The notes beneath the pieces are model-generated. The model worked only from the letters and a program-made list of their open reading frames with translations, was not told where the DNA came from and ran no database searches. Positions 36,387 to 51,800 of a DNA stretch of 64,000 nt are shown here, piece after piece; position 1 is the stretch's first letter; the number at the start of each line of letters is the position of its first letter. The position numbers were made by a program, and so were the translations under genes. This DNA is from Flavihumibacter cheonanensis (GTDB lineage: Bacteria > Bacteroidota > Bacteroidia > Chitinophagales > Chitinophagaceae): contig NZ_JAKRWF010000001.1 of the NCBI RefSeq assembly GCF_022352215.1, positions 1,488,001 through 1,552,000 on the forward strand, read 5' to 3'.

Positions 36387-39300
36387 ATGCTTTTGAAGAG
36401 AATTGTACGACTGGTATGCCTTTTAGTGGCATTCACGGTCAGCGCAACGGCTCAGGTTACAACCAGTAGCATGAGCGGCTCCGTAAAAACGGCAACAGGT
36501 GAACCTCTGGTGGGTGCTTCCGTAACTATCACACACGTTCCAACCGGAACCGTGTATACGGCAGTAACCAGAACAGGTGGCCGCTATGACTTAGCTAACA
36601 TCAATACAGGCGGACCCTACAAAATCCAGGTTTCTTTTGTTGGATTTCAGTCGGCAACCCGTGAAGACGTATTTGTGAATCTGGGTGAAACTGAAACCCA
36701 GAACTTTACCCTTTCTGATACGCAGCAGCAACTTACAGAAGTAGTAGTTGCCGCCCGTGCAAGGGCTCGTGAAACTGGGAAAGGTGGCGCAGAAACCTCT
36801 ATCGGTCGCGATAAAATGGCCAACCTTCCAACTGTAGGCCGTAATATTTCCGACTTTCTTCGTTTTATTCCTCAGGCAAAAGTTACCGGTGATGGTGGTA
36901 TTGCAATTGCTGGTCAGAACAATCGTTACAACTCCTTTTATATCGACGGAGCTGTGAATAACGATGTTTTTGGTCTGTCTGCAAGTGGTACCAACGGTGG
37001 CCAAACCGGAGCTCCTCCCATTTCAATTGACGCGATTGACCAGTTCCAGGTTGTTGTTAGCCCTTATGATGCGAGCCTTGGTAACTTCACCGGTGGTGGT
37101 ATCAATGCGATTACCCGTAGCGGTACCAACGAAACAACCGGAAGTATCTATTATTTCTTCCGTAATCAAAGCCTGAGTGGAAAAACTCCGGGTGGTGCAA
37201 AAGAAGACGCAACCAGACTGAGCGACTTCTCCAACAAAACTTATGGTTTCCGTATTGGTGGTCCAATCATTAAAAACAAACTCTTTTACTTCCTGAATGC
37301 TGAAATGCAGCGTGATGAACGTCCGCAGCCTTTTTCTTTCAGTGATTACCAGGGTTCGTTGACAGAAAACGATCTTGCTACACTCACTACCTTCCTGCGT
37401 AACAACTACAACTACGATCCGGGAGGTTACCTGAACAACCCTGAAAAAGTAACCGCTGATCGTATTACAGCTAAGGTAGACTGGAATATGAATGCTAAAA
37501 ACAAACTGAGTGTCAGCTACCGGTACAACAACGCTGAGCGTTACAACACCAGCCGTAGTGCTAACCAGTCGATCAACTTCTACAACAACGGTTACATATT
37601 CCCGAGCAAAACGAATTCATTGTCTTTAGAATTGAACAGCCGTTTCAAAAGAAGCAGCAACAATCGATTGTTGATCACCTATACTGGTGTAAAAGACGAC
37701 CGTGGTCCTCTTGGTGGCGCATTCCCAAGAGTGCGAATCCGGGATGGTGCATCCAGCCTGTTCTTTGGAACGGAAGAGTTTTCCACTGGTAACCTCTTAA
37801 CCCAGGACAACGTAGCAATTTTTGATGTATTCAAAATGTACAAAGGTAGGCATACGATTTCCATTGGAACTGACAACGAATACAGCAAATCGTATAACGT
37901 ATTCATCCGCCAGAACTATGGTTCTTATGATTTCCCGAACCTACAAACTTTCCTCGATGGTGGTAATGCAACTACCTATAACCGTTCCTATTCCCTGGTT
38001 GACCCAGGCGTAACCGGTGATAAAAGTGAAAACGCTGCTGCGGTATTTGCCACCTTACGTTTAGGTTTCTTCATCAACGATGAAATCAAGGTTACAGACA
38101 ATTTCACACTGAACCTGGGTCTCCGTGCTGATAACACCATCTTCCTGGATGATCCCCGTACGGATAATTTCTTCAATGATACAGCTGCTGCTGCTATCAG
38201 CCAGCACTATGATCTGAGAGGTGCCCGTAGTGGAAAGATTTCTAATCCAAAATGGTCGCTCAACCCAAGAATCGGATTTATTGGTAAACTTCCGGATGAA
38301 GGAGTTACCATTCGTGGTGGTGTAGGTCTGTTTACTGGCCGTGTTCCCCTGGTATGGCCTGGTGGCGTTTACAACCAGAACGGTGTTAGTATCGCTGGTT
38401 TGAACGGATCTAATCTGGCATTCCGTCCGGATCCATTTGATCAATACACCCTTTCTGATCTGGGACTGAGTGCCCGTCTGCCATCAGGTGAAGTGAACCT
38501 GATTGCTGAAGATTTCAGAATGAATAAGGTTGTACGTGCCTCCTTAGCTGTTGACAAAGAACTCGGCAAAGGCTGGAAATTCACAGTTGAAGGCATTTAC
38601 ACTAAGAATATCAACGAAATCGCCTATCAGAATGTAAACATCCTTCCTCCTTCAGCACAGTCTGCTGGTGCAGATTCACGTAATGTATATGCATTGAGTG
38701 GTTCTTTCCCAGCTCCCATACCAATGCGTTCAAATGGATCAAATCCATATACAGGAGTTTATCTTTTGTATAACAACGACGGACCCAAAGGATATTCTTA
38801 CAACTTCACAGCTACTATTGATAAAGCATGGAGAAATGGTTTTGCTTTCAATGCGAGCTATGTATATGGAAACTCCATCGTACTGAATGAAGGAACCAGT
38901 TCCCAAAACAGTTCTCAGTGGAGATTCATGGAAACAGTAAATGGCCGTAACAACATGGTTAGAAGTATCAGTGATTTTGACATTGCTCACCGTATCTACG
39001 CATATGCTGCGAAAAAAATCACTTATGCGAAAAAGCACCTGGCCACTACTTTTACTCTGGCATACAACGGTCAGAGCGGATCTCCGTTCAGTTATGTAAT
39101 GAGCCGTGGTATGGTTCGTGATTTTGACAACAACGAAGATAATGACCTGATCTATGTTCCCCGTAACAGCAGTGAAATCGTATTCGTTCAGAATGGCAAC
39201 CAGACTCCGGATCAACAGTGGGCTGCATTCAACGATTATATTGAAAATGACAGTTACCTGAAAAGCCGTCGTGGTCAGTATGCAGAAAGAAATGCTGCTC

Positions 39301-39620
39301 GTCTGCCTTTCACCCATGTGATCGACCTGAAAATCCAGCAGGATTTCAACATCCGTATTTCAAAGAAAACCTACCAGATTCAGGTTACTTACGATGTATT
39401 CAACTTCACCAACATGCTGAACCGTGAATGGGGTCGTACCTGGTTTGCATCTAACGACAACTATCGTTTGCTCGATTTTGCCGGTTACAGAAGCGCTACC
39501 GACCTTACTCCGACTTTCCGTTATACTGCTCCCAGAGACGGAAAACCATATACCATCAGCGATGGCGTATTTAACAGCAGCAGATGGAGCAGCCAGTTGG
39601 GTGTTCGTCTGAACTTCTAA
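36387..39620 (+). CDS. TonB-dependent receptor with carboxypeptidase-regulatory domain, Oar-like
   Basis: Outer-membrane transporter of 1,077 residues. Signal peptide to TATAQ (~22), carboxypeptidase-regulatory beta domain (SMSGSVKTATGEPLVGASVTI, to ~110), plug (NRYNSFYIDGAVNNDVFG; GGGINAITRSGTN) and a long barrel ending in LGVRLNF with terminal phenylalanine. It has no SusD partner and resembles Oar-type receptors. Arginine is mostly CGT, and AAC and GGT are frequent, unlike its neighbours, which suggests strong expression. The leader carries TTTCTTTG (36353-36360), near the -7 consensus, and a strong terminator follows the gene. The ligand is unknown. Confidence 0.93.
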   Translation: MLLKRIVRLVCLLVAFTVSATAQVTTSSMSGSVKTATGEPLVGASVTITHVPTGTVYTAVTRTGGRYDLANINTGGPYKIQVSFVGFQSATREDVFVNLGETETQNFTLSDTQQQLTEVVVAARARARETGKGGAETSIGRDKMANLPTVGRNISDFLRFIPQAKVTGDGGIAIAGQNNRYNSFYIDGAVNNDVFGLSASGTNGGQTGAPPISIDAIDQFQVVVSPYDASLGNFTGGGINAITRSGTNETTGSIYYFFRNQSLSGKTPGGAKEDATRLSDFSNKTYGFRIGGPIIKNKLFYFLNAEMQRDERPQPFSFSDYQGSLTENDLATLTTFLRNNYNYDPGGYLNNPEKVTADRITAKVDWNMNAKNKLSVSYRYNNAERYNTSRSANQSINFYNNGYIFPSKTNSLSLELNSRFKRSSNNRLLITYTGVKDDRGPLGGAFPRVRIRDGASSLFFGTEEFSTGNLLTQDNVAIFDVFKMYKGRHTISIGTDNEYSKSYNVFIRQNYGSYDFPNLQTFLDGGNATTYNRSYSLVDPGVTGDKSENAAAVFATLRLGFFINDEIKVTDNFTLNLGLRADNTIFLDDPRTDNFFNDTAAAAISQHYDLRGARSGKISNPKWSLNPRIGFIGKLPDEGVTIRGGVGLFTGRVPLVWPGGVYNQNGVSIAGLNGSNLAFRPDPFDQYTLSDLGLSARLPSGEVNLIAEDFRMNKVVRASLAVDKELGKGWKFTVEGIYTKNINEIAYQNVNILPPSAQSAGADSRNVYALSGSFPAPIPMRSNGSNPYTGVYLLYNNDGPKGYSYNFTATIDKAWRNGFAFNASYVYGNSIVLNEGTSSQNSSQWRFMETVNGRNNMVRSISDFDIAHRIYAYAAKKITYAKKHLATTFTLAYNGQSGSPFSYVMSRGMVRDFDNNEDNDLIYVPRNSSEIVFVQNGNQTPDQQWAAFNDYIENDSYLKSRRGQYAERNAARLPFTHVIDLKIQQDFNIRISKKTYQIQVTYDVFNFTNMLNREWGRTWFASNDNYRLLDFAGYRSATDLTPTFRYTAPRDGKPYTISDGVFNSSRWSSQLGVRLNF

Positions 39621-39644: not shown

Positions 39645-39679
39645 AAAAGGCTGTCTCACAAAATGTGGGACAGCCTTTT
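39645..39679. terminator. Terminator between the TonB receptor and esterase genes
   Basis: A 16-base stem AAAAGGCTGTCTCACA / TGTGGGACAGCCTTTT (one G-U pair) with a three-base loop, followed by TTTCTTTTT; A-rich on the other side, so it can act in both directions between these convergent genes. Confidence 0.9.
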
Positions 39680-39703: not shown

Positions 39704-40531
39704 TCAGCCTGCAAAGGCCCAGTCCAGAAATACGGGCATTGCTTTACCCCAGGTAGCCACATCGTGACGTCCATCGGGTAATTCCAGGTAATACATATCG
39801 GAAGCGCGGTTATATCCTTTTCTTTCCAGTTCTGTCATCAATCCGAGTGTATCATCAATAGAATCAATGATACCATTCCCGTTGCGATCATTGGTTTCAT
39901 CAAGAGTACCCGTGCAAAAGAAAAACTTCAGCCAGGGAGCATAGTTACCTTTTCTTACCAGGTCATGCATAATGCGATGTTTATCATCATCGTATTCAGG
40001 CTCCGTCTGATCAAGCATTCTCCACCAGAGTGAACCTGAAAAAACACCCACTTTGGTAAATTCATGGGGATGCGCCCAAACAATATCCAGTGCTGATAAA
40101 CCACCCAGGCTAAATCCGGCAAATACTTTTTCACTGAATTCAGGATATCCCAGTTCCAGCCGGATGGTTGGCAATAATTCTTCGAAAACAAATTTCGTGT
40201 AAGCAGCTGCTTTAGCACCCCTGCCCAGGTAATCCGGAACAGCGGCCGTACCGTACTCCATTTTACGATCAGTACCCGCATGCATAGCAACCGCAATAAG
40301 CGGAATGCTTCCCTTACGTTGAAGGAACTCCCTAAACACTTCGATCCAGTTCATGGTAGCCATGTCCTGACCATCATTAATTAACAGCAAGGCAGGGCGC
40401 TGGTGTTTTTCCAGGAATCCGGGAACATACGCGTCTACTTTTACTGTTCGATCAAGGTGTTCCGATTCAATTTCAGTAGCGATGATATCAATTGTTAAAC
40501 TGGTTTTCTCCGGGGGCATCAGGTCACTCAT
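39704..40531 (-). CDS. Putative esterase, enterochelin-esterase-like alpha/beta hydrolase
   Basis: Esterase_D/PF00756-type hydrolase of 275 residues. Nucleophile elbow GFSLGGLSALDIVWAHP near residue 146; the early segment ALLLINDGQDMATMNWIEVF and the late HDVATWGKAMP (catalytic His) fit the family. No signal peptide, so it is cytoplasmic. Family members hydrolyse siderophore or short acyl esters; the substrate is not assignable. It converges on the TonB receptor and is divergent from the amidoligase cluster. Confidence 0.86.
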   Translation of the reverse strand: MSDLMPPEKTSLTIDIIATEIESEHLDRTVKVDAYVPGFLEKHQRPALLLINDGQDMATMNWIEVFREFLQRKGSIPLIAVAMHAGTDRKMEYGTAAVPDYLGRGAKAAAYTKFVFEELLPTIRLELGYPEFSEKVFAGFSLGGLSALDIVWAHPHEFTKVGVFSGSLWWRMLDQTEPEYDDDKHRIMHDLVRKGNYAPWLKFFFCTGTLDETNDRNGNGIIDSIDDTLGLMTELERKGYNRASDMYYLELPDGRHDVATWGKAMPVFLDWAFAG

Positions 40532-40635: not shown

Positions 40636-41598
40636 ATGAAGAAAATTGGCATTTTGTTTGGCCAGGAACGCAGCTTTCCCATGGCCTTCATAGAGCGTAT
40701 AAATAGTAAAAACATAGACGGCATTCTTGCCGAACCCGTACGCATCGATAAAGTGATGCAGGGAGAAGCCACCGACTATGCAGTAATCATTGACCGGATT
40801 TCCCAGGATGTACCTTTTTACCGGGCTTTTCTAAAGAATGCGGCCCTCTGCGGAACAGCCGTGATAAACAACCCCTTCTGGTGGAGTGCCGATGAAAAAT
40901 TCTTCAATAACTGTCTGGCAACCAAAATTGGAGTTCCGGTACCCAAAACGGTTATACTTCCTTCCAGGGATCTTCCGGCAGACACTACCGATCAATCATT
41001 CAGCAACCTGGCTTATCCGCTTGACTGGGAGGGTATTTTCAAGTATGTCGGATTTCCCGCCTATATGAAACCCTTTGCGGGGGGTGGTTGGAAAAACGTG
41101 TACAAGCTGGTGAGCATGGAAGACTTTTTTGAGAAACATGGTGAAACCGGCGAGTTGGTAATGCTCTTACAGGAGGAGATTATATTTGAAGAATACTACC
41201 GCTGTTATTGCATTGGGGGTAAATATGTGCGCATTATGCCTTATGAACCCCGCAACCCGCACCATCTCCGTTACCAGGCAGGCTTCTCTCCCAGTCCGGA
41301 ACGACTCAAACAAATGGAAGAAATTGTTTTAAAAATCAATCATTATCTTGGCTATGACTTCAACACAGTGGAACTGGCAGTAAGAGATGGCATCCCATAT
41401 GCGATCGATTTCTGTAATCCCGCTCCCGACGCGGAAATCAAAAGTGTAGGTGAAGACAACTTTGCCTGGGTAGTTGAAACAGCTGCCAATTACGCCATTG
41501 AAAAAGCGATGGTGCAACAGCCGGGAAAAGACAACCTGACCTGGGGCGAATACATCAAGCGCAGCGCTGCCAAAACCCCCTTAACTTCCGGATTATAA
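40636..41598 (+). CDS. RimK-like ATP-grasp ligase
   Basis: ATP-dependent carboxylate-amine/thiol ligase of 320 residues. The pre-ATP-grasp domain (residues 1-~100) is followed by the ATP-binding lysine K145 in AYMKPFAGGGWKNVY with its glycine loop, a second ATP-binding strand LLQEEIIFEEYYRCY, and the metal ligands D258 and N261 in AIDFCNPAPD. The last part points to a RimK/glutathione-synthetase-like enzyme joining an amino acid or peptide to a carboxylate via an acyl phosphate. First gene of a same-strand cluster with a GCS2-type ligase 45 bases downstream. Substrates unknown. Confidence 0.85.
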   Translation: MKKIGILFGQERSFPMAFIERINSKNIDGILAEPVRIDKVMQGEATDYAVIIDRISQDVPFYRAFLKNAALCGTAVINNPFWWSADEKFFNNCLATKIGVPVPKTVILPSRDLPADTTDQSFSNLAYPLDWEGIFKYVGFPAYMKPFAGGGWKNVYKLVSMEDFFEKHGETGELVMLLQEEIIFEEYYRCYCIGGKYVRIMPYEPRNPHHLRYQAGFSPSPERLKQMEEIVLKINHYLGYDFNTVELAVRDGIPYAIDFCNPAPDAEIKSVGEDNFAWVVETAANYAIEKAMVQQPGKDNLTWGEYIKRSAAKTPLTSGL

Positions 41599-41607
41599 GC
41601 AATTTTT

Positions 41608-41635
41608 TTTCACGTCTCACGTCTCACATCTCACT
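41608..41635 (+). repeat. Heptamer array, four units, before the GCS2-type ligase
   Basis: tttcacg, tctcacg, tctcaca, tctcact in the 45-base gap after the ATP-grasp gene; the ligase ATG follows eight bases later. Same unit and orientation as between parA and parB. Confidence 0.85.
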
Positions 41636-41643
41636 TAATTCTT

Positions 41644-42756
41644 ATGTCTCCAATCAACTATAGCCAATTCACACTGGGTATTGAAGAAGAATACATGGTC
41701 CTTGACCCACAGTCGCGCGAGCTGAAAAGCCATGAACAAAAGATCGTACTGGAGGGACAAAAAATCATCAAGGACAAAGTAAAAGCAGAAATGCACCAGG
41801 CAGTGGTGGAAGTGGGTACAGATATATGTAAGGACATTGACGAAGCCTTAAAAGATGTGGCTACACTTCGCAATACCATTGCGAGAGTTGCCGGCGACCT
41901 GGGCTTTTCAATGGGAGCCGCCGGTACACATCCTTTCAGCCATTGGGAAAGCCAGCTCATCACAGATCATGTCCGTTACAGTGAAATCGTTAACGAATTA
42001 CAGGAAGCCGCCCGAAGTAACCTGATTTTTGGCCTGCATGTGCATGTAGGAATGGAAAGCAGGGAGATGGCCAATCATATTGCCAACAGCACCCGGTATT
42101 TCCTGCCACATATTTATGCGCTAAGTACCAATTCCCCTTTTTGGGAAGGACGGTTGACAGGTTATAAATCTTTCCGTACCAAGGTATTTGACAAATTCCC
42201 ACGGACAGGCATACCCGAATATTTCGATACCATTGAAGATTATGATCACTATGTCAAAATGCTGGTGAAAACTAATTGCATCGACAATGCTAAAAAAATC
42301 TGGTGGGATCTGAGGGTGCACCCATTTTTTAATACGGTAGAATTCAGAATCTGCGATGTACCACTAACCACCCATGAAACCATTATCATTGCTGCACTCT
42401 TTCAGGCAATCTGTGCGAAAATTTACAAGTTGCGGACCAACAACCTGAATTTCATTCAGTACTCACGGGCACTCATAAACGAAAACAAATGGAGAGCCAG
42501 TCGCTATGGAATCGATGGCAGGCTGATTGATTTCGGTAAAGAAGAAGAAGTTAATACCCGTGTATTGATTTATGAATTGCTTGATTTTGTAGACGATGTT
42601 GTCGATCAGCTCGGAAGCCGTCATATCCTTTCACTGGTTCCTAACCTGCTGGAAACAGGTACCGGCGCTGATCGTCAAATGAAGGTTTACCAGGAGACCA
42701 ACAGTATGATATCAGTGGTGGATTATATCAAAGATCAATTTCTGTATGGCATTTAG
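41644..42756 (+). CDS. Carboxylate-amine ligase, YbdK/GCS2 family
   Basis: Glutamine-synthetase-fold ligase related to glutamate-cysteine ligase type 2. The opening FTLGIEEEYMVLDPQSREL holds the E-x-E metal-binding pattern, and GLHVHVGM near residue 125 holds the second metal/ATP site. WWDLRVHPFFNTVEFRICDVP is the conserved block seen in E. coli YbdK. Length 370 is normal. YbdK shows weak glutamate-cysteine ligase activity; the true substrate here is unknown, but the flanking ATP-grasp gene suggests consecutive amide-bond formation. Its end overlaps the next gene by 11 bases. Confidence 0.92.
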   Translation: MSPINYSQFTLGIEEEYMVLDPQSRELKSHEQKIVLEGQKIIKDKVKAEMHQAVVEVGTDICKDIDEALKDVATLRNTIARVAGDLGFSMGAAGTHPFSHWESQLITDHVRYSEIVNELQEAARSNLIFGLHVHVGMESREMANHIANSTRYFLPHIYALSTNSPFWEGRLTGYKSFRTKVFDKFPRTGIPEYFDTIEDYDHYVKMLVKTNCIDNAKKIWWDLRVHPFFNTVEFRICDVPLTTHETIIIAALFQAICAKIYKLRTNNLNFIQYSRALINENKWRASRYGIDGRLIDFGKEEEVNTRVLIYELLDFVDDVVDQLGSRHILSLVPNLLETGTGADRQMKVYQETNSMISVVDYIKDQFLYGI

Positions 42757-43219
42757 TATAATAACGCCTTTGTATAAACGCAGTTGGAAGACGCTATTAT
42801 TGATAGTAATCCTGAGCAGCGCCTGTTTAATTCAGAGTTCCTGTGTTACTACAGCCCCCTATGATCTGTATGTATACAAGGAATCCACCAGCCTTAAAGT
42901 GGATGCACTGAAACTGATGGACAAGGCAGAGAAACCTTATAATACACAGGAAAAAGAAATAGAGAAATTAACTGATCAGCTGGATAAACTCTACGAATAC
43001 GAAGTACATCGAAAGAAAAATCAGTTGCGGATTCAAATGTGGGATTTGCTCCGAAATCCGGAAAAAAACCTGCTGGGTGGTTTTCTATCACGCTGGAAAA
43101 ATGAAGGTCAGTTAAGTCCGGGTTTTATTACTGAAGTAAAAATCATTGTTGGCAAAGCATTTGACCAATTAGCAGAACTGGAAAGCGGTAAACTTACTCC
43201 AAAAGAACTTCAACAATAA
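42746..43219 (+). CDS. Small exported or lipid-anchored protein of unknown function
   Basis: 157 residues. A basic N-terminus and hydrophobic helix (residues ~15-31) end in SSAC27 and SSC33; either could be a loose lipobox, otherwise it is a membrane anchor. The rest is helical and charged, with coiled-coil character (KEIEKLTDQLDKLYEYEVHRKKN). I recognise no family. It starts inside the 3' end of the YbdK-like gene and is followed 20 bases later by another small unknown gene, so it is part of the cluster. Confidence 0.65.
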   Translation: MAFSIITPLYKRSWKTLLLIVILSSACLIQSSCVTTAPYDLYVYKESTSLKVDALKLMDKAEKPYNTQEKEIEKLTDQLDKLYEYEVHRKKNQLRIQMWDLLRNPEKNLLGGFLSRWKNEGQLSPGFITEVKIIVGKAFDQLAELESGKLTPKELQQ

Positions 43220-43239
43220 TCACAACCTAAGCTGTTATT

Positions 43240-43575
43240 ATGGCTGAAATGGTACCATTTGACGATATTTTCAAAACCCTCAAAAAACAGGTGGAAGAGC
43301 TGGCCAGGCTCTTTGTAAAGAACTACACCAAAGCTGCCATAAAGGATGGCAGAAAATTTCTGGATGATACTAAAGAAAGCCTGAAACGCTGGACCCTGCT
43401 GCTGGCGGAAGGAAAATTAACCACGCAGGATTTCGAGTGGCTGGTACTCGGTCAAAAAGACCTGGCTCAGATGATTGCACTGAAGCAGGCGGGCTTGTCT
43501 GTTATCCGGATTGAACAATTCCGCAACAGTTTATTGTCGTTGGTTGTTGATACCATCTTTGGTATCGTTTTATAA
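43240..43575 (+). CDS. Small helical protein of unknown function
   Basis: 111 residues, no signal peptide. Predicted mostly helical and amphipathic (FKTLKKQVEELARLFVKNYTKAAIKDGRKFLDDTKESLKRW is split over several helices), ending in a hydrophobic tail LLSLVVDTIFGIVL that could dip into a membrane. The motif GKLTTQDFEWL echoes SGKLTPKEL in the preceding protein, so the two may be functionally paired. No family recognised. The amidohydrolase gene follows after 15 bases. Confidence 0.65.
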   Translation: MAEMVPFDDIFKTLKKQVEELARLFVKNYTKAAIKDGRKFLDDTKESLKRWTLLLAEGKLTTQDFEWLVLGQKDLAQMIALKQAGLSVIRIEQFRNSLLSLVVDTIFGIVL

Positions 43576-43590
43576 TTAAAATCTCAGTAC

Positions 43591-45222
43591 TTGAAAAAAC
43601 TACAACTATTTATCGGCGCCCTTTTGATTATGGGTACCTGGGGCTGCAGCAACAAGAGCGAAGCAGATTTGCTTATCCGCAATGCCGTTATTTATTCGGT
43701 TGACAGCCAGTTCAACAAACAAACAGGCATGGTTATCCGGGATGGAAAAATCCTGGAACTTGGTATGGATGCACAATTGATGGAAAAGTACCAGGCCAAA
43801 GAAGTATTGGATGCAGCCGGACAGTTCATTTACCCGGGCTTTATTGATGCTCACTGTCATTTTTACCGCTATGGTTTGGGATTGCAAACGGCCGACCTGG
43901 TAGGCACTACCAGCTGGCAATCCATACTGGATACACTGGAGAAATTTTCCACCATTGTTCCGGAAGGATGGTTGATAGGCAGGGGCTGGGATCAGAACGA
44001 CTGGCCTACACAAATTTTTCCTACTAATGAAGACCTGAATCGGATGTTCCCCGATCGGCCGGTTTTATTGAGCCGGATTGATGGGCATGCGGCAATCGCC
44101 AATAAAAAGGCCCTTGAACTGGCGGGTATCAAAGCGGGTGACCGCTTAACAGGTGGTAGCATCGAAGTAAAAAACGGAAAGCTGACAGGTATCCTGGTTG
44201 ATAACGCAATTGACCTGGTAAGCTCCAGGATACCCGCTCCATCTGCAAACCAAATGAAGGAAGCGCTGCTGGGTGCACAACGGAACTGTTTTGCAATGGG
44301 ACTTACCACCGTTGACGATTGTGGACTTGATTATACAGAAGTGGAATTCATCGACAGTCTGCATAAATCCGGCGATCTGAAAATGCGGGTCTATGCCATG
44401 TTAAGCGATGCCAAACGCAATTATGATTATATCCTTCCAAAAGGAATTATCAAAACGCCCTTTCTCAATGTTCGATCGTTTAAAGTTTATGCAGATGGGG
44501 CATTAGGTTCAAGAGGAGCCTGCCTGTTGCACGATTATGCTGATGATCCCGGTAATAAAGGATTTCTGTTAAGCAATCCCGAACATTTTGATTCCGTGGC
44601 CGCTTTGCTCGCCAACTCTCCTTTCCAAATGAATACCCATGCTATCGGAGACAGTGGCAATCGAACGATCCTGAAGATTTATGCAAAGTATCTCGAGGGG
44701 CAATCAGACCGGCGCTGGAGAATTGAGCATGCGCAGGTGGTGAATCCGGATGATTTTGTGCTTTTTGGTGCCTATGGGATTATTCCATCCGTGCAGCCCA
44801 CACATGCTACTTCCGATATGTACTGGGCTGGAAAACGATTGGGTGCGGAAAGAGAAAAAGGTGCTTATGCTTTCAAACAACTGATGGATCAAAATGGCTG
44901 GATTCCACTGGGAACTGATTTTCCCGTAGAGGATATTTCCCCATTTAAAACCTTTTTTGCCGCGGTTGCCCGACAGGATGCCAATGGCTATCCTGAGGGT
45001 GGTTACCAGCCAGAAAACGCATTATCCCGGGAACAGGCACTTCGGGGTATGACCATCTGGGCCGCAAAAAGCAATTTCGAAGAATCTGAAAAAGGCAGCC
45101 TGGAACCCGGTAAACTAGCTGATTTCGTACTGCTTGACCGGGATCTGCTGACGGCACCGAAAGACTCCCTGCTCTCTACCCGGGTCCTCGGCACCTGGGT
45201 GGGAGGCCAAAAAGTGTTTTAA
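43591..45222 (+). CDS. Lipoprotein amidohydrolase, YtcJ-like
   Basis: TIM-barrel metal-dependent hydrolase of the Amidohydro_3 family, 543 residues. The start codon is TTG, giving MKKLQLFIGALLIMGTWGC, a signal peptide with lipobox ending in GC19. Metal-binding H88-C-H90 stands in DAHCHFYRYG, further histidines in MNTHAIGDSG and WRIEHAQVV, and the aspartate in PLGTDFPVEDISP. It should act in the periplasm or at the surface on an amide or imide substrate. It lies in the middle of the ligase cluster and may process or salvage its product. Confidence 0.9.
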   Translation: MKKLQLFIGALLIMGTWGCSNKSEADLLIRNAVIYSVDSQFNKQTGMVIRDGKILELGMDAQLMEKYQAKEVLDAAGQFIYPGFIDAHCHFYRYGLGLQTADLVGTTSWQSILDTLEKFSTIVPEGWLIGRGWDQNDWPTQIFPTNEDLNRMFPDRPVLLSRIDGHAAIANKKALELAGIKAGDRLTGGSIEVKNGKLTGILVDNAIDLVSSRIPAPSANQMKEALLGAQRNCFAMGLTTVDDCGLDYTEVEFIDSLHKSGDLKMRVYAMLSDAKRNYDYILPKGIIKTPFLNVRSFKVYADGALGSRGACLLHDYADDPGNKGFLLSNPEHFDSVAALLANSPFQMNTHAIGDSGNRTILKIYAKYLEGQSDRRWRIEHAQVVNPDDFVLFGAYGIIPSVQPTHATSDMYWAGKRLGAEREKGAYAFKQLMDQNGWIPLGTDFPVEDISPFKTFFAAVARQDANGYPEGGYQPENALSREQALRGMTIWAAKSNFEESEKGSLEPGKLADFVLLDRDLLTAPKDSLLSTRVLGTWVGGQKVF

Positions 45223-45226
45223 CCCT

Positions 45227-45267
45227 CACCCGTCCGGTGCCACCGGACGGGTGGCACCGGACGGGTA
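45227..45267. repeat. GC-rich palindromic intergenic repeat, copy 2 (inverted relative to copy 1)
   Basis: CACCCGTCCGGTG (45227-45239), then CACCGGACGGGTG (45241-45253) and CACCGGACGGGTA (45255-45267). The 41 bases are the exact reverse complement of 17803-17843 except for the last base. It sits just upstream of the -7 element of the glutamine amidotransferase gene. Confidence 0.9.
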
Positions 45268-45280
45268 AAGGAGAAATCTT

Positions 45281-45288
45281 TATTTTTG
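45281..45288 (+). promoter_or_regulatory. -7 element of the glutamine amidotransferase gene, 5 nt from ATG
   Basis: TATTTTTG followed by CAGCT and the ATG at 45294. A separate promoter inside the cluster, predicted to give a leaderless or nearly leaderless mRNA. Confidence 0.55.
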
Positions 45289-45293
45289 CAGCT

Positions 45294-46139
45294 ATGGCAA
45301 TGGATTTGGGAAAGATTAAGGTAGCCATTCTGGATCTCTATGAGGGGCTGGAAAACCAGGGAATGCGTTGTATTCGAGAAATTTTGAACCTGTATGCAGA
45401 TCAGCACCAGTTGGATCTGGAATGGGATGAATTTGAAGTACGCCTGAAGCAGCAGACACCCGATCTAAGCTATGATATTTATATATCAAGCGGAGGCCCC
45501 GGATCTCCACTCGAAAGTGAAGGATCAGCCTGGGAAGCAGCCTATTTTGACTGGCTGCGATCCGTAGAAAATTTCAATACCAATCCTTTACATCCCCGTA
45601 AGAAACAAGTATTCTTCATTTGCCATTCCTATCAGCTTGCCTGCCGGCATTATGGTGTTGGAGAAGTGACAGCCCGGAAATCTACCGCATTTGGTGTTTT
45701 CCCTGTTCACATGCTGCCAGGTGCAGAGAAAGAACCCGTTTTTCAGAATCTTAAAGATCCCTTTTATGCGGTAGACAGTCGCGATTACCAGGTGATCCGT
45801 CCCAACTATAACCGCATCCGCCAGATGGGCGGAAAAATTCTGGCAATCGAAAAGGAAAGACCACATGTGCCGCTTGAACGTGCCATGATGGCCTTCCGTT
45901 TTAACGAATATATGGTGGGCACACAATTCCATCCGGAAGCGGACGCCATTGGTATGAGTATGTACCTGCAGCGGGATGACAAAAAGGAAACAGTGATCAA
46001 AAGTCATGGATTTGAGAAATGGCAAAGTATGATCGAACACCTGAATGATCCGGATAAAATCCTGTTCACCTATTCCCAGGTGCTTCCCAATTTTCTAAAT
46101 CATGCAATCGGACAATTAGCCTTCGAAGAAGCCGGATAA
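45294..46139 (+). CDS. Class I glutamine amidotransferase domain protein
   Basis: Stand-alone GATase1 of 281 residues that would release ammonia from glutamine or a related amide. The catalytic triad is visible: C110 in FFICHSYQLAC, and H213 and E215 in GTQFHPEAD. SSGGPGSPLE is the oxyanion strand. The nucleophile elbow reads CHSYQ instead of the usual CxGxQ. It lacks a synthetase domain, so it must serve a partner, perhaps one of the ligases nearby. ATG at 45294 is preferred to a frame starting in the repeat, and to ATG at 45300, because of the promoter spacing. Confidence 0.87.
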   Translation: MAMDLGKIKVAILDLYEGLENQGMRCIREILNLYADQHQLDLEWDEFEVRLKQQTPDLSYDIYISSGGPGSPLESEGSAWEAAYFDWLRSVENFNTNPLHPRKKQVFFICHSYQLACRHYGVGEVTARKSTAFGVFPVHMLPGAEKEPVFQNLKDPFYAVDSRDYQVIRPNYNRIRQMGGKILAIEKERPHVPLERAMMAFRFNEYMVGTQFHPEADAIGMSMYLQRDDKKETVIKSHGFEKWQSMIEHLNDPDKILFTYSQVLPNFLNHAIGQLAFEEAG

Positions 46140-46178
46140 AAGCGGCAATTCTGTATCTTCAGACAAAGGCAAAATTTT

Positions 46179-47372
46179 ATGGTTTCATCCTGGAGAACTT
46201 CTTTTAACCAGCAATTCACCAAAGAACGATACGAAGCATTTTTATATGACCTGAACAATGCCTATCCTGGTGCGATCGAATTCCGTGTGGCAGAAACCCC
46301 TATACTGGCTGATAAGGCTTTCAAGCAGAAAGTATTGGATGCCTGCGAAAGCATTGTAGACCGAATACTTGAGCCGGATTTCAAAACGATCACCGAACGC
46401 AGCATCCCTCCGGCAGAAAGGGTACCACATGAAACACCGTTCGCACACATGATTGCATTTGATTTCGGCATTTGCGAAAATGAACAAAAAGAACTGGAAC
46501 CGCAACTGATAGAAATGCAGGGGTTCCCTACCCTATTCGGATTCCAAGTATATTACCCGGAAGTACTGCGACGTCATTTTGAAATACCGGAAAATTATTC
46601 TCAATTTCTAGGAGGATATACCAAAGAAACCTACCTGGAAGAATTGCAGTCCATTGTACTTGGAACGCATCAGCCGGAAGAAGTAATTCTCCTGGAAATC
46701 AAACCACAGGAACAAAAAACCCGGATCGATTTTTATTGTACCCAAACCTATCTGGGTATCCAACCGGTATGCATAACCGAACTGGAACAGGAAGGCAAGG
46801 CGCTTTATTATACAAAAGATGATAAAAGAATACGCATAAAGCGCATATACAACCGCGTTATATTTGATGACCTGAACGCTCAGAAAGATCAGTTGGGATC
46901 CTATATTGATATCACCCAGGATCTCGATGTGGAATGGGTTCCGCATCCCAACTGGTTTTACCGGATCAGCAAGTTCACCATGCCTTTAATCAAACATCCT
47001 TATATACCTCCTACTTATTTCCTGAATGAGTTGGAAAGTCTGCCTGCTGATTTAAGTCAGTATGTACTAAAACCACTCTTCTCCTTTGCCGGACAGGGAG
47101 TGGTTATTGATATCAGTCCGGATGATATCAGTGACATTAAAGATCCTCAAAACTGGATCCTGCAGAAAAAAGTACACTATGCGGATGTAATCCCAACACC
47201 AGATATACCTGCCAAAGCTGAAATCCGCATCATGTATCTCTGGAAGGAAGGATGGGAACGCCCCAAACCCGCTATTAACCTGGCGCGCCTCAGCAAAGGA
47301 AAGATGATCGGTGTCCGCTACAACAAAGACAAAGAATGGGTGGGGGGATCTGTCTGTTTTTTTGAACAATAA
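46179..47372 (+). CDS. Diverged ATP-grasp-like protein, function unknown
   Basis: 397 residues, not assignable to a named family by eye, but with ATP-grasp features: K298 and the glycine loop in YVLKPLFSFAGQGVV, a following strand WILQKKVHYADVIPT (K330/K331 region), and a possible metal-binding end INLARLSKGKMIGVRYN. QLIEMQGFPTLFGFQ near residue 110 is another conserved-looking block. No signal peptide. It lies 39 bases behind the glutamine amidotransferase gene and 11 before a cupin gene. I infer an ATP-dependent ligase working with the amidotransferase; this needs a profile search. Confidence 0.7.
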   Translation: MVSSWRTSFNQQFTKERYEAFLYDLNNAYPGAIEFRVAETPILADKAFKQKVLDACESIVDRILEPDFKTITERSIPPAERVPHETPFAHMIAFDFGICENEQKELEPQLIEMQGFPTLFGFQVYYPEVLRRHFEIPENYSQFLGGYTKETYLEELQSIVLGTHQPEEVILLEIKPQEQKTRIDFYCTQTYLGIQPVCITELEQEGKALYYTKDDKRIRIKRIYNRVIFDDLNAQKDQLGSYIDITQDLDVEWVPHPNWFYRISKFTMPLIKHPYIPPTYFLNELESLPADLSQYVLKPLFSFAGQGVVIDISPDDISDIKDPQNWILQKKVHYADVIPTPDIPAKAEIRIMYLWKEGWERPKPAINLARLSKGKMIGVRYNKDKEWVGGSVCFFEQ

Positions 47373-47383
47373 AGAATTCCAAT

Positions 47384-47698
47384 ATGCAACACCTGGATAA
47401 CATTCCTGTAAAAGAAGTACTGCCCGGATTATTCGGAAAATTTCTGCATGGAGAAAAATCCTCTCTGGCTGTTTGGGAGATCCGTAAAGGAGCTGTACTC
47501 CCCCTTCATGCACACGAAAACGAACAAATTACCTATATACTGGAAGGCGAACTACAAATGACGATCGGAGAAAATACAACCGTTTTCAAGGCTGGAAATG
47601 TAGAGGTAATCCCTGCCAATATACCTCACAGTGCTATCGCATTGACAGACTGTAAGGTTATTGACAGCTGGGCTCCGGTTCGGGAAGCCTATCGTTAA
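47384..47698 (+). CDS. Small cupin-domain protein
   Basis: Single cupin barrel of 104 residues. Motif 1 is LPLHAHENEQITYILEGEL, giving two histidines and a glutamate; motif 2 is GNVEVIPANIPHSAIAL with the third histidine. It could bind a metal and act as isomerase, dioxygenase or sensor; the sequence does not decide. Last gene of the ligase cluster, ending two bases before the convergent RND adaptor gene. Confidence 0.9.
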   Translation: MQHLDNIPVKEVLPGLFGKFLHGEKSSLAVWEIRKGAVLPLHAHENEQITYILEGELQMTIGENTTVFKAGNVEVIPANIPHSAIALTDCKVIDSWAPVREAYR

Positions 47699-48832
47699 TT
47701 ATTCCTCTTCCGCGGAATTCTTAAGTTTCCCCAATACTGAATAAGCATTGGCGAGGACAAGTTCCTCATTTTCCAGGTTCATAGCAATACTGCTAATCGC
47801 AAGCAATCCCTTACCAGCCGATTCTGTTTCCACTTGTACCATTTCAAAGGTCAGTGGTTTCACCTGCCGGAAAACGAATTGATTGTTACCAAACCGTACA
47901 ACTGCTTCTTCAGGTACAGTAAGTGCTTTTCGTTTATCAAGAAACACAGTGGCATTCAGAAACATTCCCGGCATAAGATGATCCGGCATTTTCTCAAAAT
48001 GGCAATGTACGGTACCACTCCGGTTTTCATCTACATTGCGGGTAAAAATTAAAATTTCACCCGGATATTCGATTTCCGGCTCATCCACAAACTGCATACT
48101 AACGCGCTGGCCTACCCGAAGTTTTGCCATATCCTTTTCAAAAACTGTCAATGCGCCGTGCATATCATCCGGGTTAATCAGTTCAAACAAAACATCGGTA
48201 GGATTCACATATTTACCAATGTTCACATTCACTTTGGAAACATATCCATTAATGGGTGATCGAAGTGCCACCGATCGGGATAAATTTTCAGAGGTGAGTT
48301 GTTCAGGCTGAAGCCCAACCAGCCGCAGTTTTTCACCATACCCTTTGAGCAATACCTGCTGGCTTTCCACTTCTGTGCTCACCTGTTGCAGCACCTTATC
48401 CGCATTCACTTTGTTCTCATTGAGAATCCGCTGACGCTCCAGGTCCTGCTTGAGATAATCCAGTTTGCTTAGGGTAACCAGGTAGTCCTGCTGCAATTGC
48501 ACCAGGGCCTGATCTTCAATGGTACCGATCACCTCCCCTTTTCGAACACGCATGCCCGGTAGTAAGCGGGTTGACTTCAAATAACCTCCCAAAGGAAAAC
48601 TCACTGATACAATATTCTGCGGGGGCACATCCACCACTCCGTTTACGGTCAGTGTACTACTGATGTCTTTTGTTTCCGCTTTACCGGTTACAATTCCTGC
48701 CATTCGAAGCTGACTGCTATCCAGTTCAACCTGGTTAGTAGCTAATTCTAATGCTGTTGTTTCGGATTTGGGTGCCGCTGTATTACAAGCCGCAAATACC
48801 AATACCGAATATATAATAGATAGCTTTTTCAT
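47699..48832 (-). CDS. RND efflux periplasmic adaptor, CusB/CzcB-like
   Basis: Membrane-fusion protein joining an inner-membrane pump to an outer-membrane channel. The N-terminus is a lipoprotein signal (MKKLSIIYSVLVFAAC16). The biotinyl-lipoyl halves and the coiled-coil hairpin are visible (GGYLKSTRLLPGMRVRKGEVIGTIEDQALVQLQQDY, then RSPINGYVSKVNVNIGKYVNP), followed by the beta-barrel and membrane-proximal domains. Length 377 is normal. The gene starts five bases after the stop of the fused pump gene, so they are one operon. Heavy-metal efflux is inferred from the partner. Confidence 0.92.
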   Translation of the reverse strand: MKKLSIIYSVLVFAACNTAAPKSETTALELATNQVELDSSQLRMAGIVTGKAETKDISSTLTVNGVVDVPPQNIVSVSFPLGGYLKSTRLLPGMRVRKGEVIGTIEDQALVQLQQDYLVTLSKLDYLKQDLERQRILNENKVNADKVLQQVSTEVESQQVLLKGYGEKLRLVGLQPEQLTSENLSRSVALRSPINGYVSKVNVNIGKYVNPTDVLFELINPDDMHGALTVFEKDMAKLRVGQRVSMQFVDEPEIEYPGEILIFTRNVDENRSGTVHCHFEKMPDHLMPGMFLNATVFLDKRKALTVPEEAVVRFGNNQFVFRQVKPLTFEMVQVETESAGKGLLAISSIAMNLENEELVLANAYSVLGKLKNSAEEE

Positions 48833-48837
48833 TGTTC

Positions 48838-51800
48838 TTAATTTCCATTTACAAAGTTCATTTCAACCAATTGCATATTGTAGGATTTCACTGCATCCAG
48901 GTAATTCAGCCGGATATTAATGCTCTGATTCATTAACATGGTCCATTGCAGATAATCAATCTCTCCGTTTTCATAAGCAGCCCGTGCCTGTAACTGCAGG
49001 GCGTCTGCCTGCTTTTTTCCGGATTGTCTGAAATAATTTATCTGATCGCGTGACCTTTTCATTTCCTCTTCCAGTTGGAGTTGCCGGTACTGAAGCGACT
49101 GCCTCAAAGCGGAAGCCTGCGTAGAAGCCTGCTCTGCCTGCATTTCGGCGGCTTTTATCCGGGTGCGGGTCGCTTTCATGAACAAGGGAAGCCCCATTGT
49201 AAAATTGACAGAATGAAAGCGGTAACCCGGCCCAAAATACAGATCATCAACTCCATTTCTGGTTTGGTAACCAACAATTGACATATTGGTATATCCTACT
49301 GTAAACTCAGGAAGCATTTGCGCCTTTTCCGTTTTACCTGAAGCCCTTGCGACTTCTCCCAATTGCTCCAAATAGCGGAGTCCGGGTGAACCGGTGAACC
49401 CGGCAGCTTGTATAGGTTCCAGTAAAGGCTCCTGGTAAACAGGCTGATAATAATCAGTTGTATTTGTAAGCGCCATCAATCGTTGCTGAATCGCCCGACG
49501 GTCCAGCACCAATTGACGTAATTGCAACTGCAATTGTTCCAGCATCGCATCCGCTGTTGTTTTTTCCAACTGGTTAGATTCTCCCGTTTCTAAACGCAAG
49601 GCTGCTGCTTTTCCAAACCGACTGTAAACCGTATCGAGTGATTGCAAAACCAACTCCCGCTCCCGGATGTCGATCAATTGCAGATACAAGATCCGGATTT
49701 CTCTTTTGAGTTCATTCACCTGAATACCGGTAGCCGCTTCCTGCAATCGCTCCTGCTGAGCATACAGGTTCTTTTGAGACTTATATACTGCAGGCAATTG
49801 CAATCCCTGGTTCAGAAACAGACGATTGTCATTGAATACGGAATTAAACCGGCCATATTCAATACCCAATGCGGTTTTTGGCAACTCAAACGTTCCCGAT
49901 TGCAGCACTTTAAAATAATCCTCCTGCTGCCTGGCCGCCTTTAAACCCAGGTTTTGCCGCTCTGCCAGTACCAGCAATGAATCAAGAAGAACAGGATATT
50001 CATTTATCACTTGTGCTTGTACGTTAGCTGAACCCAAACCAGCAAGTACGATTAATACTATGGCTGGAGCCTTTTTACTTACACCCCATTTCTTTTCTAT
50101 CCACACATACAAAACAGGAAGGAGAAAGAGTGTTAGAATAGTAGCCGTTAACAAGCCGCCAATAACAACTGTTGCAAGCGGGCGTTGTACTTCAGCACCC
50201 GGACCGTGACTAAGCGCCATCGGCAAAAAGCCCAGGGAAGCAACAGATGCTGTCATTAATACCGGACGCAATCTCAAACTGGTTCCTTCCATAACAATAT
50301 CCTTTAGTGAATGATTGGCTTCTTTTTTAAGGCGATTGAATTCTGCAATCAGTACAATGCCGTTTAAAACTGCCACTCCAAATAGCGCAATAAACCCGAT
50401 GCCGGCTGAAATGCTGAAAGGCATATCACGGAGGTAGAGCGCAATGACTCCACCAATAGCTGATAATGGAATTGCTGAAAATATTAGCAGCCCGTATTTG
50501 ATGGATCCAAAAGAAAAATATAGCAGAAAAAAAATAAGCAACAATGCAACAGGTACAGCAATCATCAAACGTGCTTTCGCTTGTTGCAGGTTTTCAAACT
50601 GTCCGCCATAATGCACATAATATCCTGCTGCAAATTTAAGACTGCGATTTACTTCATTACTTAATTCACCTACTACTGATTCCACATCTCTGCCCCGAAC
50701 ATTGAAACCCACCACTATCCGGCGTTTGGCATCTTCCCGTTGAATCTGATTGGGTCCTTCCTTGATCTGAATATCTGCAACCTGGTAAAGGGGTACTTGC
50801 AAACCGGTAGGAGTAGGTACCAGCAACTGCTCAATCTGGCTGATATCCTGCCGGCCTTTTTCACTCAATCGAACCACCAGGTCAAAGCGTCTTTCATTTT
50901 CATAGATCAAACCAGCCGACTCTCCAGCAAATGCAGCGCGAATCAGGTTATTAATATCGGCAATTTGCAATTGGTAGCGGGAGATCGCAGCCCTGTTATA
51001 GGTAACCACTATTTGTGGGAGCCCTGTAACCGTTTCAACATATACATCTGCAGCCCCTTCCAGTTTACGAACTACCCCGGCCAGGTGATGCGCATAGGCT
51101 GACAATGAATCCAAATTCTCCCCAAAAATCTTACACACCACGTCCTGTCTTGCACCAGAGATCAGTTCATTGAAACGCATCTGTACCGGGAACTGGAAAC
51201 CGGCTGTAAGTCCGGGTATAGTTGCCAGTTCCTGGCTCATTTTATCCGCCAGTTCATCATAGGTTTTAGCGCTGGTCCACTCCTCTTTGGGCTTCATCTG
51301 GATGATCATATCACTCATTTCGATGGGCATGGGATCGGTTGGTATTTCCGCTGCTCCAATGCGTGTTACGATTTTTTCTATCTCTGGAAATTTGCGCAGC
51401 AGCAATCCCGCTCCCTGCTGGGATGACTCAATAGAAGTGGTCAATGAACTGCCAACCAAAACTCTTGTATCAACTGCAAAATCTCCCTCCTCCAATTCAG
51501 GAATAAACTCACCACCCAATCGCGACATCAGGAAAATGGCAAACAGGAAAAAGACCAAAGCTCCACCAACCAGCCAGGCTGGTATGGTCAACGCTTTTTG
51601 AAGCAGCGGGCGATACCAATTCACCAGTTTATCCATCAACCGATCGGAAATGGTAGGCTTATGATTGAGTTTCTTACTTAATGCCAGCGCGCTCATCATA
51701 GGAACATAAGTAACCGAAAGCAGGAAGGCACCAATGAGGGCGAAGCTAACGGTCATGGCCATGGGCCGGAACATCTTGCCTTCGATTCCAACCAGCGACA

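Follow-up and report, generated by a model that had tools for sequence, protein, structure and literature searches.

A set of five genes in Flavihumibacter cheonanensis, encoding a divergent esterase, a RimK-like ligase (RMK), a YbdK-type ligase (YBD), a lone glutamine amidotransferase (GATase) and a 397-residue protein that belongs to no named family (AG397), may represent an old, mainly vertically inherited pathway of the Bacteroidota that leads to one small peptide-like metabolite independently of nonribosomal peptide synthetases. We give this reading about an even chance; the product is perhaps a small gamma-glutamyl-type peptide or amide. The genes lie in a stretch of 64,000 nucleotides (contig NZ_JAKRWF010000001.1, positions 1,488,001 to 1,552,000), referred to here as the window.

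A sample of 395 Bacteroidota genomes was searched for AG397, RMK, YBD and GATase. AG397 was found in 114 genomes including that of F. cheonanensis, RMK in 135, YBD in 129 and GATase in 90, with a single match for each of the four in the F. cheonanensis genome itself. Among the 114 AG397 genomes, 110 also harbored RMK, 109 YBD and 105 both, linked or not, and GATase was found in 69. Fisher tests of co-occurrence over the 395 genomes ignore shared ancestry, and their p-values were not taken as proof. The AG397 neighborhoods of all AG397-positive genomes other than the own genome (113 loci) were then read, and a gene was considered linked when it lay within 8 kb of AG397 on the same strand. RMK was linked at 60 of these loci (40 genera, 14 families), YBD at 62 and GATase at 48. 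RMK, YBD and AG397 stood together at 57 loci, covering 38 genera and 13 families, and all four genes at 35 (19 genera, 7 families). The association of the four genes is confirmed as more than chance, and the proposal of the first-pass annotation that the ligases and the lone amidotransferase belong together is upheld as a conserved partnership. That annotation had asked whether the genes are scattered and unpaired in relatives: at least one of RMK, YBD and GATase is linked to AG397 in 16 of the 26 families that bear AG397, and in the other 10 they are unlinked.

In the usual arrangement the genes run from the esterase through RMK, YBD and GATase to AG397, with median gaps in that order of 38, 27, 41 and 17 bases (n = 37 to 55, window included). 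Departures from it are of several kinds. Loci of family f17 have GATase outside the cluster, at another place in the genome (genomes G224, G070 and G124 are examples), and the own family is often split, RMK lying within 8 kb of AG397 in 2 of its 11 other AG397-positive genomes. Additionally, a single RMK scan gave 585 confirmed loci, and the best 80 of these are referred to as the named loci. Of the 80, 79 have the divergent esterase next to RMK and 78 have YBD, and the three misses fall at contig ends; at L185, the sole locus missing the esterase, the contig stops shortly before RMK. The esterase is part of the conserved locus and had been omitted from the cluster as first listed. AG397 follows downstream of RMK on the same strand in 13 of the 62 named loci that have at least 5 kb downstream.

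A FastTree phylogeny of AG397 shows 27 family-label changes for 26 families, the minimum being 25 and the mean after shuffling 90.9, and its midpoint root has linked arrangements on either side. Because the tree follows taxonomic families and linkage is found on both root sides, the pathway seems to be of old origin and inherited mainly by vertical descent, often lost or rearranged on the way, and does not look like a mobile natural-product cluster. A mobile or viral origin was rejected on the basis of two further searches: no relative of AG397, RMK or the small window protein S111 was found in the plasmid collection and none of AG397 in viral_contigs, these two collections being the only ones outside the phylum that were searched for AG397.

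AG397 reached no Pfam or NCBIfam cut-off, the only match being DUF2971 at 15.3 bits against a cut-off of 22. Its AlphaFold model, made from a 34-sequence alignment, has a mean predicted local distance difference test score (pLDDT) of 92.7, and the 20 structures that Foldseek matched to it below E 0.001 are all members of the glutathione synthetase superfamily. These include the putative glutathionylspermidine synthase 3n6x (1.6e-14), yeast (4.1e-14) and human glutathione synthetase and homoglutathione synthetase, followed by glutathione-synthetase-like nematode proteins, YgiC (6.3e-12), YjfC, Escherichia coli glutathionylspermidine synthetase (2io7) and Cp1B. The matches to 3n6x, 1m0w, 7uk8 and 2hgs have E of 3.3e-11 or better and template modelling scores (TM-scores) by query of 0.58-0.64. 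By sequence profile, the best PDB match of AG397 is YgiC (E 0.013), and a distant member at locus L104 gave 17 bits to CP_ATPgrasp_1, whose cut-off is 23.1. Residues D95, E112, Q114, K298, E348 and R350 are invariant in all 34 sequences. In the report on Cp1B, a glutathione-synthetase-fold ligase that makes an amide bond in E-64 synthesis, the active site is described as housing R-x-D ... E-x-N residues (PMC12568646); D95, E112 and Q114 of AG397 match the Asp and the E-x-N by motif and spacing only. AG397 is predicted from its model to be a circularly permuted ATP-grasp ligase of the glutathione synthetase fold. Both this fold and the D ... E-x-(N/Q) layout appear to be shared with eukaryote-type glutathione synthetase, glutathionylspermidine synthetase, YgiC/YjfC and Cp1B, but AG397 differs from them in its partners and in reaching no family cut-off, as well as in two presumed active-site residues considered below.

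A second form of the locus combines RMK and GATase without AG397 (type B, the form with AG397 being type A). Sixteen genomes have this combination, and the loci of 14 were read (all but those of G104 and G123). In all 14 the next open reading frame (ORF) after RMK encodes 451-507 residues, followed in 13 by GATase; an esterase of ~237 residues lies upstream of RMK in 10, and another downstream of GATase in 7. Three of the type-B ORFs were searched against families, of which two resembled CP_ATPgrasp_2, scoring slightly below the cut-off, and the third had no match. A profile of the 14 proteins matches 3n6x with E 4.6e-9, and both R-x-D and E-x-N are kept in 14 of 14. Aligned directly by hhalign, AG397 and the type-B ligase gave a probability of 5.5 and E 0.007; we link the two because their nearest structure, 3n6x, is shared. 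Since a circularly permuted ATP-grasp follows RMK at 14 of 14 type-B loci, RMK may always need such an enzyme next to it, supplied by one family or another. Among the 128 genomes with an RMK match of E 1e-80 or better, AG397 is present in 110 and the second form in 14; 2 were unfetched, and the remaining 2 are without AG397 (G160, whose stretch as read contained no second form, and G381, which was not read). GlgA- and GlgC-like ORFs, identified by reading, occur near RMK or within ~10 kb of GATase at three type-B loci of families f43 and f51 (L154, L156 and L158).

YBD passed the cut-offs of NCBIfam PRK13515 (508 bits against 371) and Pfam GCS2 (193 against 21), and a PDB profile search matched it to E. 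coli YbdK (1r8g, 6.2e-66). Judged by these scores YBD is a YbdK-family carboxylate-amine ligase, which differs from the YbdK/GCS2 ligases whose membership it shares in its steady partnership with RMK and AG397. GATase passed PF00117 (30.3 bits, cut-off 22.8), and its catalytic triad C110/H213/E215 is invariant in 25 of 25 sequences. It is a class-I glutamine amidotransferase with an intact triad, and may deliver ammonia to a synthetase, for which RMK and AG397 are the candidates. The ORF list places its start at a GTG at 45237, and an ATG at 45294 yields a 71-base gap to the preceding gene; with these alternatives, and with matches outside the own genus beginning mostly at residues 13-27 of the longer GTG form, the start is not certain.

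RMK scored 25.5 bits against the RimK family (TIGR00768), whose cut-off is 143.4. Its AlphaFold model (mean pLDDT 90.9) matches ArgX best in Foldseek (6.8e-14), then Ddl, PsnB, LysX and RimK; the ArgX, LysX and RimK entries have E of 4.4e-12 or better and TM-scores by query of 0.62-0.67. An ATP-grasp fold of the RimK/LysX type is predicted for RMK. This modelled fold is what it has in common with the RimK, LysX, ArgX and Ddl ligases, whereas it departs from them in scoring far below the RimK-family cut-off and in a lysine-rich tail found in some members. A Lys/Ala/Pro-rich C-terminal tail of at least 25 residues is present in 20 of 60 RMK proteins (families f2, f3, f5, f8, f9 and f47), 19 of them with at least 20% Lys. 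The tails are histone-H1-like and reach 121 residues (for example L032:12005-13303, L051:10900-12273 and L061:5487-6629), and no comparable tail was found in 114 AG397, 62 YBD or 50 GATase sequences. The neighbors of scattered RMK genes in distant clades showed no general pattern in six ~10-kb regions and loci L161-L163. Near RMK, three f25 genomes have an ORF of ~500 residues (L161:7726-9231, L285:6601-8142 and L286:6009-7541) that by reading resembles a histidine ammonia-lyase, and in an f23 genome (L289:3723-5766) RMK is flanked by what we take to be ribosomal proteins L21/L27 and dUTPase.

The first-pass annotation had described eight same-strand genes at 40636-47698 with gaps of -11 to +71 bases, an arrangement borne out by eight plus-strand ORFs (Table 1). 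Its enzyme types hold for YBD, GATase, the amidohydrolase (AMH) and the cupin, which passed family cut-offs; RMK is only RimK-like, and AG397 is an ATP-grasp only by predicted fold.

Table 1. Genes of the locus, with positions in the window.
Gene	Position	Strand	Description
esterase	39704-40531	-	275-residue alpha/beta esterase, PF00756 75 bits; divergent from RMK
RMK	40636-41598	+	RimK-like predicted ATP-grasp amidoligase
YBD	41644-42756	+	YbdK/GCS2-type carboxylate-amine ligase
S157	42746-43219	+	small protein; N-terminus reads as signal-like; first gene of two-gene cassette
S111	43240-43575	+	small protein; second half of S157/S111 cassette
AMH	43591-45222	+	TTG start; Amidohydro_3 hydrolase, Pfam 300 bits; probable lipoprotein by reading of N-terminus
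GATase	45294-46139	+	lone class-I glutamine amidotransferase, PF00117
AG397	46179-47372	+	397 residues; unnamed family, predicted glutathione-synthetase-fold (circularly permuted) ATP-grasp ligase
cupin	47384-47698	+	Cupin_2, Pfam 53 bits

The idea of a single eight-gene unit was rejected, with the two small proteins forming a separate cassette and AMH and the cupin varying between loci. Homologs of S111 were found in nine other genomes (10 of 148 including the own genome), and in eight of the nine the gene immediately upstream encodes a homolog of S157; the 3.3 kb read there contained none of the core genes. Both proteins are absent from the 80 named loci. Among these best 80 of 585 loci, the nearest named species by RMK (91%) is Flavihumibacter petaseus, and its locus, L164, lacks both. 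At L164 YBD overlaps AMH by 11 bases, the same overlap as between YBD and S157 in the window, and the DNA similarity between the two loci ends at the YBD stop codon. Both AG397 genomes sampled from the genus of the window (the window and L115) carry the pair. Given their pairing away from the core and their absence from L164 and the named loci, S157 and S111 look like an independent cassette inserted in this genus and not the pathway members they had been taken for. The cassette is scattered in the phylum, and by reading only, a patatin-like ORF lies downstream of it at L281.

AMH and the cupin are lineage-specific neighbors. A cupin lies near AG397 at 3 of the 113 loci, all of the own family, and in 4 of the 80 named loci. 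AMH stands between YBD and GATase in 6 of the 80, and of 14 genomes searched, three (G072, G226 and G013) have close homologs of it (45-56%) at a distance from the core. In families f25 and f28 an amidohydrolase that is a 31-39% relative of AMH lies directly upstream of AG397 (12 pairs, median gap -4); its N-terminus reads as non-exported, and the exported amidohydrolase for turnover that had been suggested is not general. A small ferredoxin-like ORF, again by reading, lies upstream of this pair at L096, L101, L108, L109, L111, L112 and L114. Apart from the core and an M29 peptidase, 20 recurrent neighbor clusters were put through Pfam. A third ATP-grasp of the Ddl/L-amino-acid-ligase kind stands beside the core at nine type-A loci (f2, f4 and f5) and three type-B loci (f19); the four of these 12 that were run scored best in NCBIfam against amino-acid ligases, among them PRK02186 and Ddl, with no cut-off reached. 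An M17 aminopeptidase lies by the core at eight loci (Pfam on one) and the M29 peptidase between YBD and AG397 at seven (Pfam on two). The third ATP-grasp, the M17 and M29 enzymes and the f25/f28 amidohydrolase fit the making and recycling of a small peptide.

Around the locus, a hairpin of 16 pairs with a T tail (39645-39679) lies between the esterase and a convergent ORF (36387-39620) that presumably encodes a TonB-dependent receptor. This receptor-like ORF has a same-strand match in 45 of the 80 named loci, 12 of these with at least 45% identity. On the minus strand at 47699-53199, a membrane fusion protein (HlyD_D23) stands beside a 1453-residue ORF that, by reading only, resembles a fusion of an RND pump with a TolC-like part. 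A consensus promoter scan gave 13 sites against 15.1 expected, an uninformative result.

On the basis of gene content, conservation, predicted folds and retained catalytic residues, we propose the following substrates, order of steps and product. The metabolite would be built through successive ATP-dependent amide bonds on small molecules. YBD may activate a Glu-type side-chain carboxylate and join it to an amine, by analogy with the gamma-glutamylcysteine ligases of its superfamily, and RMK may add an amino acid to a carboxylate as LysX, ArgX and RimK do. AG397 would activate the carboxylate of the peptide and cap it with an amine, amino acid or polyamine, as in glutathione, glutathionylspermidine and YgiC/YjfC ligases. 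GATase could release ammonia for a terminal amide or cleave a gamma-glutamyl bond, and the esterases, with M17/M29 aminopeptidases and the amidohydrolase in some lineages, could trim or recycle the product.

Several observations weigh against such a pathway. AG397 is absent from 281 of the 395 genomes, and at 42 of the 113 loci none of RMK, YBD and GATase is linked to it. Of the 114 AG397 genomes, 45 gave no GATase match and 5 are without YBD; 4 of these 5 have RMK and GATase, so YBD is not strictly needed. Solitary occurrences were also seen across the 395 genomes (YBD in 10, RMK in 8 and GATase in 4), and most loci showed no linked transporter or regulator. The fold matches of AG397 are distant, with TM-scores by query of 0.44-0.65 and root-mean-square deviations of 6-11. 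AG397 is without the Arg before the catalytic Asp that is present in the type-B ligase and in Cp1B, and Gln replaces Asn, so its activity could differ. Finally, the own genome encodes BshC over the cut-off, which weakens the notion that the pathway supplies a missing thiol cofactor.

The lysine-rich tail, seen in RMK and in none of its partners, is the main support for an alternative that we regard as unlikely, in which a macromolecule is tagged: RMK, recruited in some lineages by its tail to a polyanion or the ribosome, would add residues to a protein, the other ligases would extend or cap them, and GATase, esterases and peptidases would remove them. RimK and LysX/ArgX act on proteins, and structures that include RpsF and LysW are among the fold matches of RMK. 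However, the tail is missing in 40 of the 60 RMK proteins, that of the window included, no carrier protein appeared among the 20 neighbor clusters, and the recurrent aminopeptidases and L-amino-acid-ligase-like enzyme point to small peptides instead. A cycle of gamma-glutamyl and polyamine conjugates is rather improbable. In it, YBD or RMK would glutamylate an amine, AG397 would make a peptide-polyamine and GATase would act as a PuuD-like gamma-glutamyl hydrolase. The class-I GATase fold does include gamma-glutamyl hydrolases, but GATase matches PF00117 and showed no match to Peptidase_C26, the PuuD family, up to E 0.1 in Pfam. Likewise, glutathionylspermidine synthetase (2io7) and YgiC/YjfC are among the nearest folds of AG397, the latter two being termed peptidylpolyamine synthetases in the Cp1B report (PMC12568646), whereas no polyamine oxidase, aminotransferase or transporter was found among the cluster genes run against Pfam and NCBIfam.

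Synthesis of a glutathione-like low-molecular-weight thiol, with YBD making a gamma-glutamyl-thiol precursor and AG397 finishing the tripeptide, would suit the gamma-glutamylcysteine ligase superfamily of YBD and the eukaryotic glutathione synthetase fold predicted for AG397. A thioredoxin/redoxin-domain protein near AG397 on the opposite strand at eight f25 loci (Pfam on one) is mildly in its favor. We consider it very improbable all the same, as BshC indicates that bacillithiol is likely made, YBD is absent from some modules, and no glutaredoxin or glutathione transferase was found among the 20 neighbor clusters. Most improbable of all is coincidence, with functionally unrelated genes held together by slow rearrangement. 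The scattered gene order in families such as f23, f25, f28, f29 and f48 and the vertical inheritance would agree with it, but RMK, YBD and AG397 are linked in 13 families, and their joint presence or absence persists where the genes are unlinked, a comparison to which the caution about shared ancestry in the Fisher tests applies.

Each enzyme type of the proposed peptide pathway is already known, and the combination matches no characterized pathway found. In the N-acetylglutaminylglutamine amide pathway, an ATP-grasp ligase and an amidotransferase produce an amidated dipeptide. The likeness lies in the idea of a ligase with an amidotransferase, and the present locus differs in having a class-I GATase and in showing no match to the synthetase of that pathway among the window genes run against NCBIfam. 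Iyer and colleagues reportedly surveyed amidoligase neighborhoods in 2009 and described the same kind of gene combination. No description of the gene set was found in the titles and abstracts searched, a scope outside which the 2009 survey, the likeliest source of one, falls.

A broader reading, which we hold as tentative and somewhat doubtful, is that these genes form an undescribed core pathway at the level of the phylum, in which an old cofactor-like or tag-like peptide is made by three, and in some lineages four, free-standing amidoligases of different families. AG397 would then found an unnamed family of the glutathione synthetase fold, and RMK would in some lineages be tethered to a polyanion through its histone-H1-like tail. 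If this is true, new free-standing enzymes that form amide bonds would have come to light in AG397, RMK and the type-B ligase, and the metabolite would be the product of enzymes to which standard family libraries give either no name or that of a carboxylate-amine ligase. Many members of a large environmental phylum would then have in common an as yet unnamed metabolite or tag.

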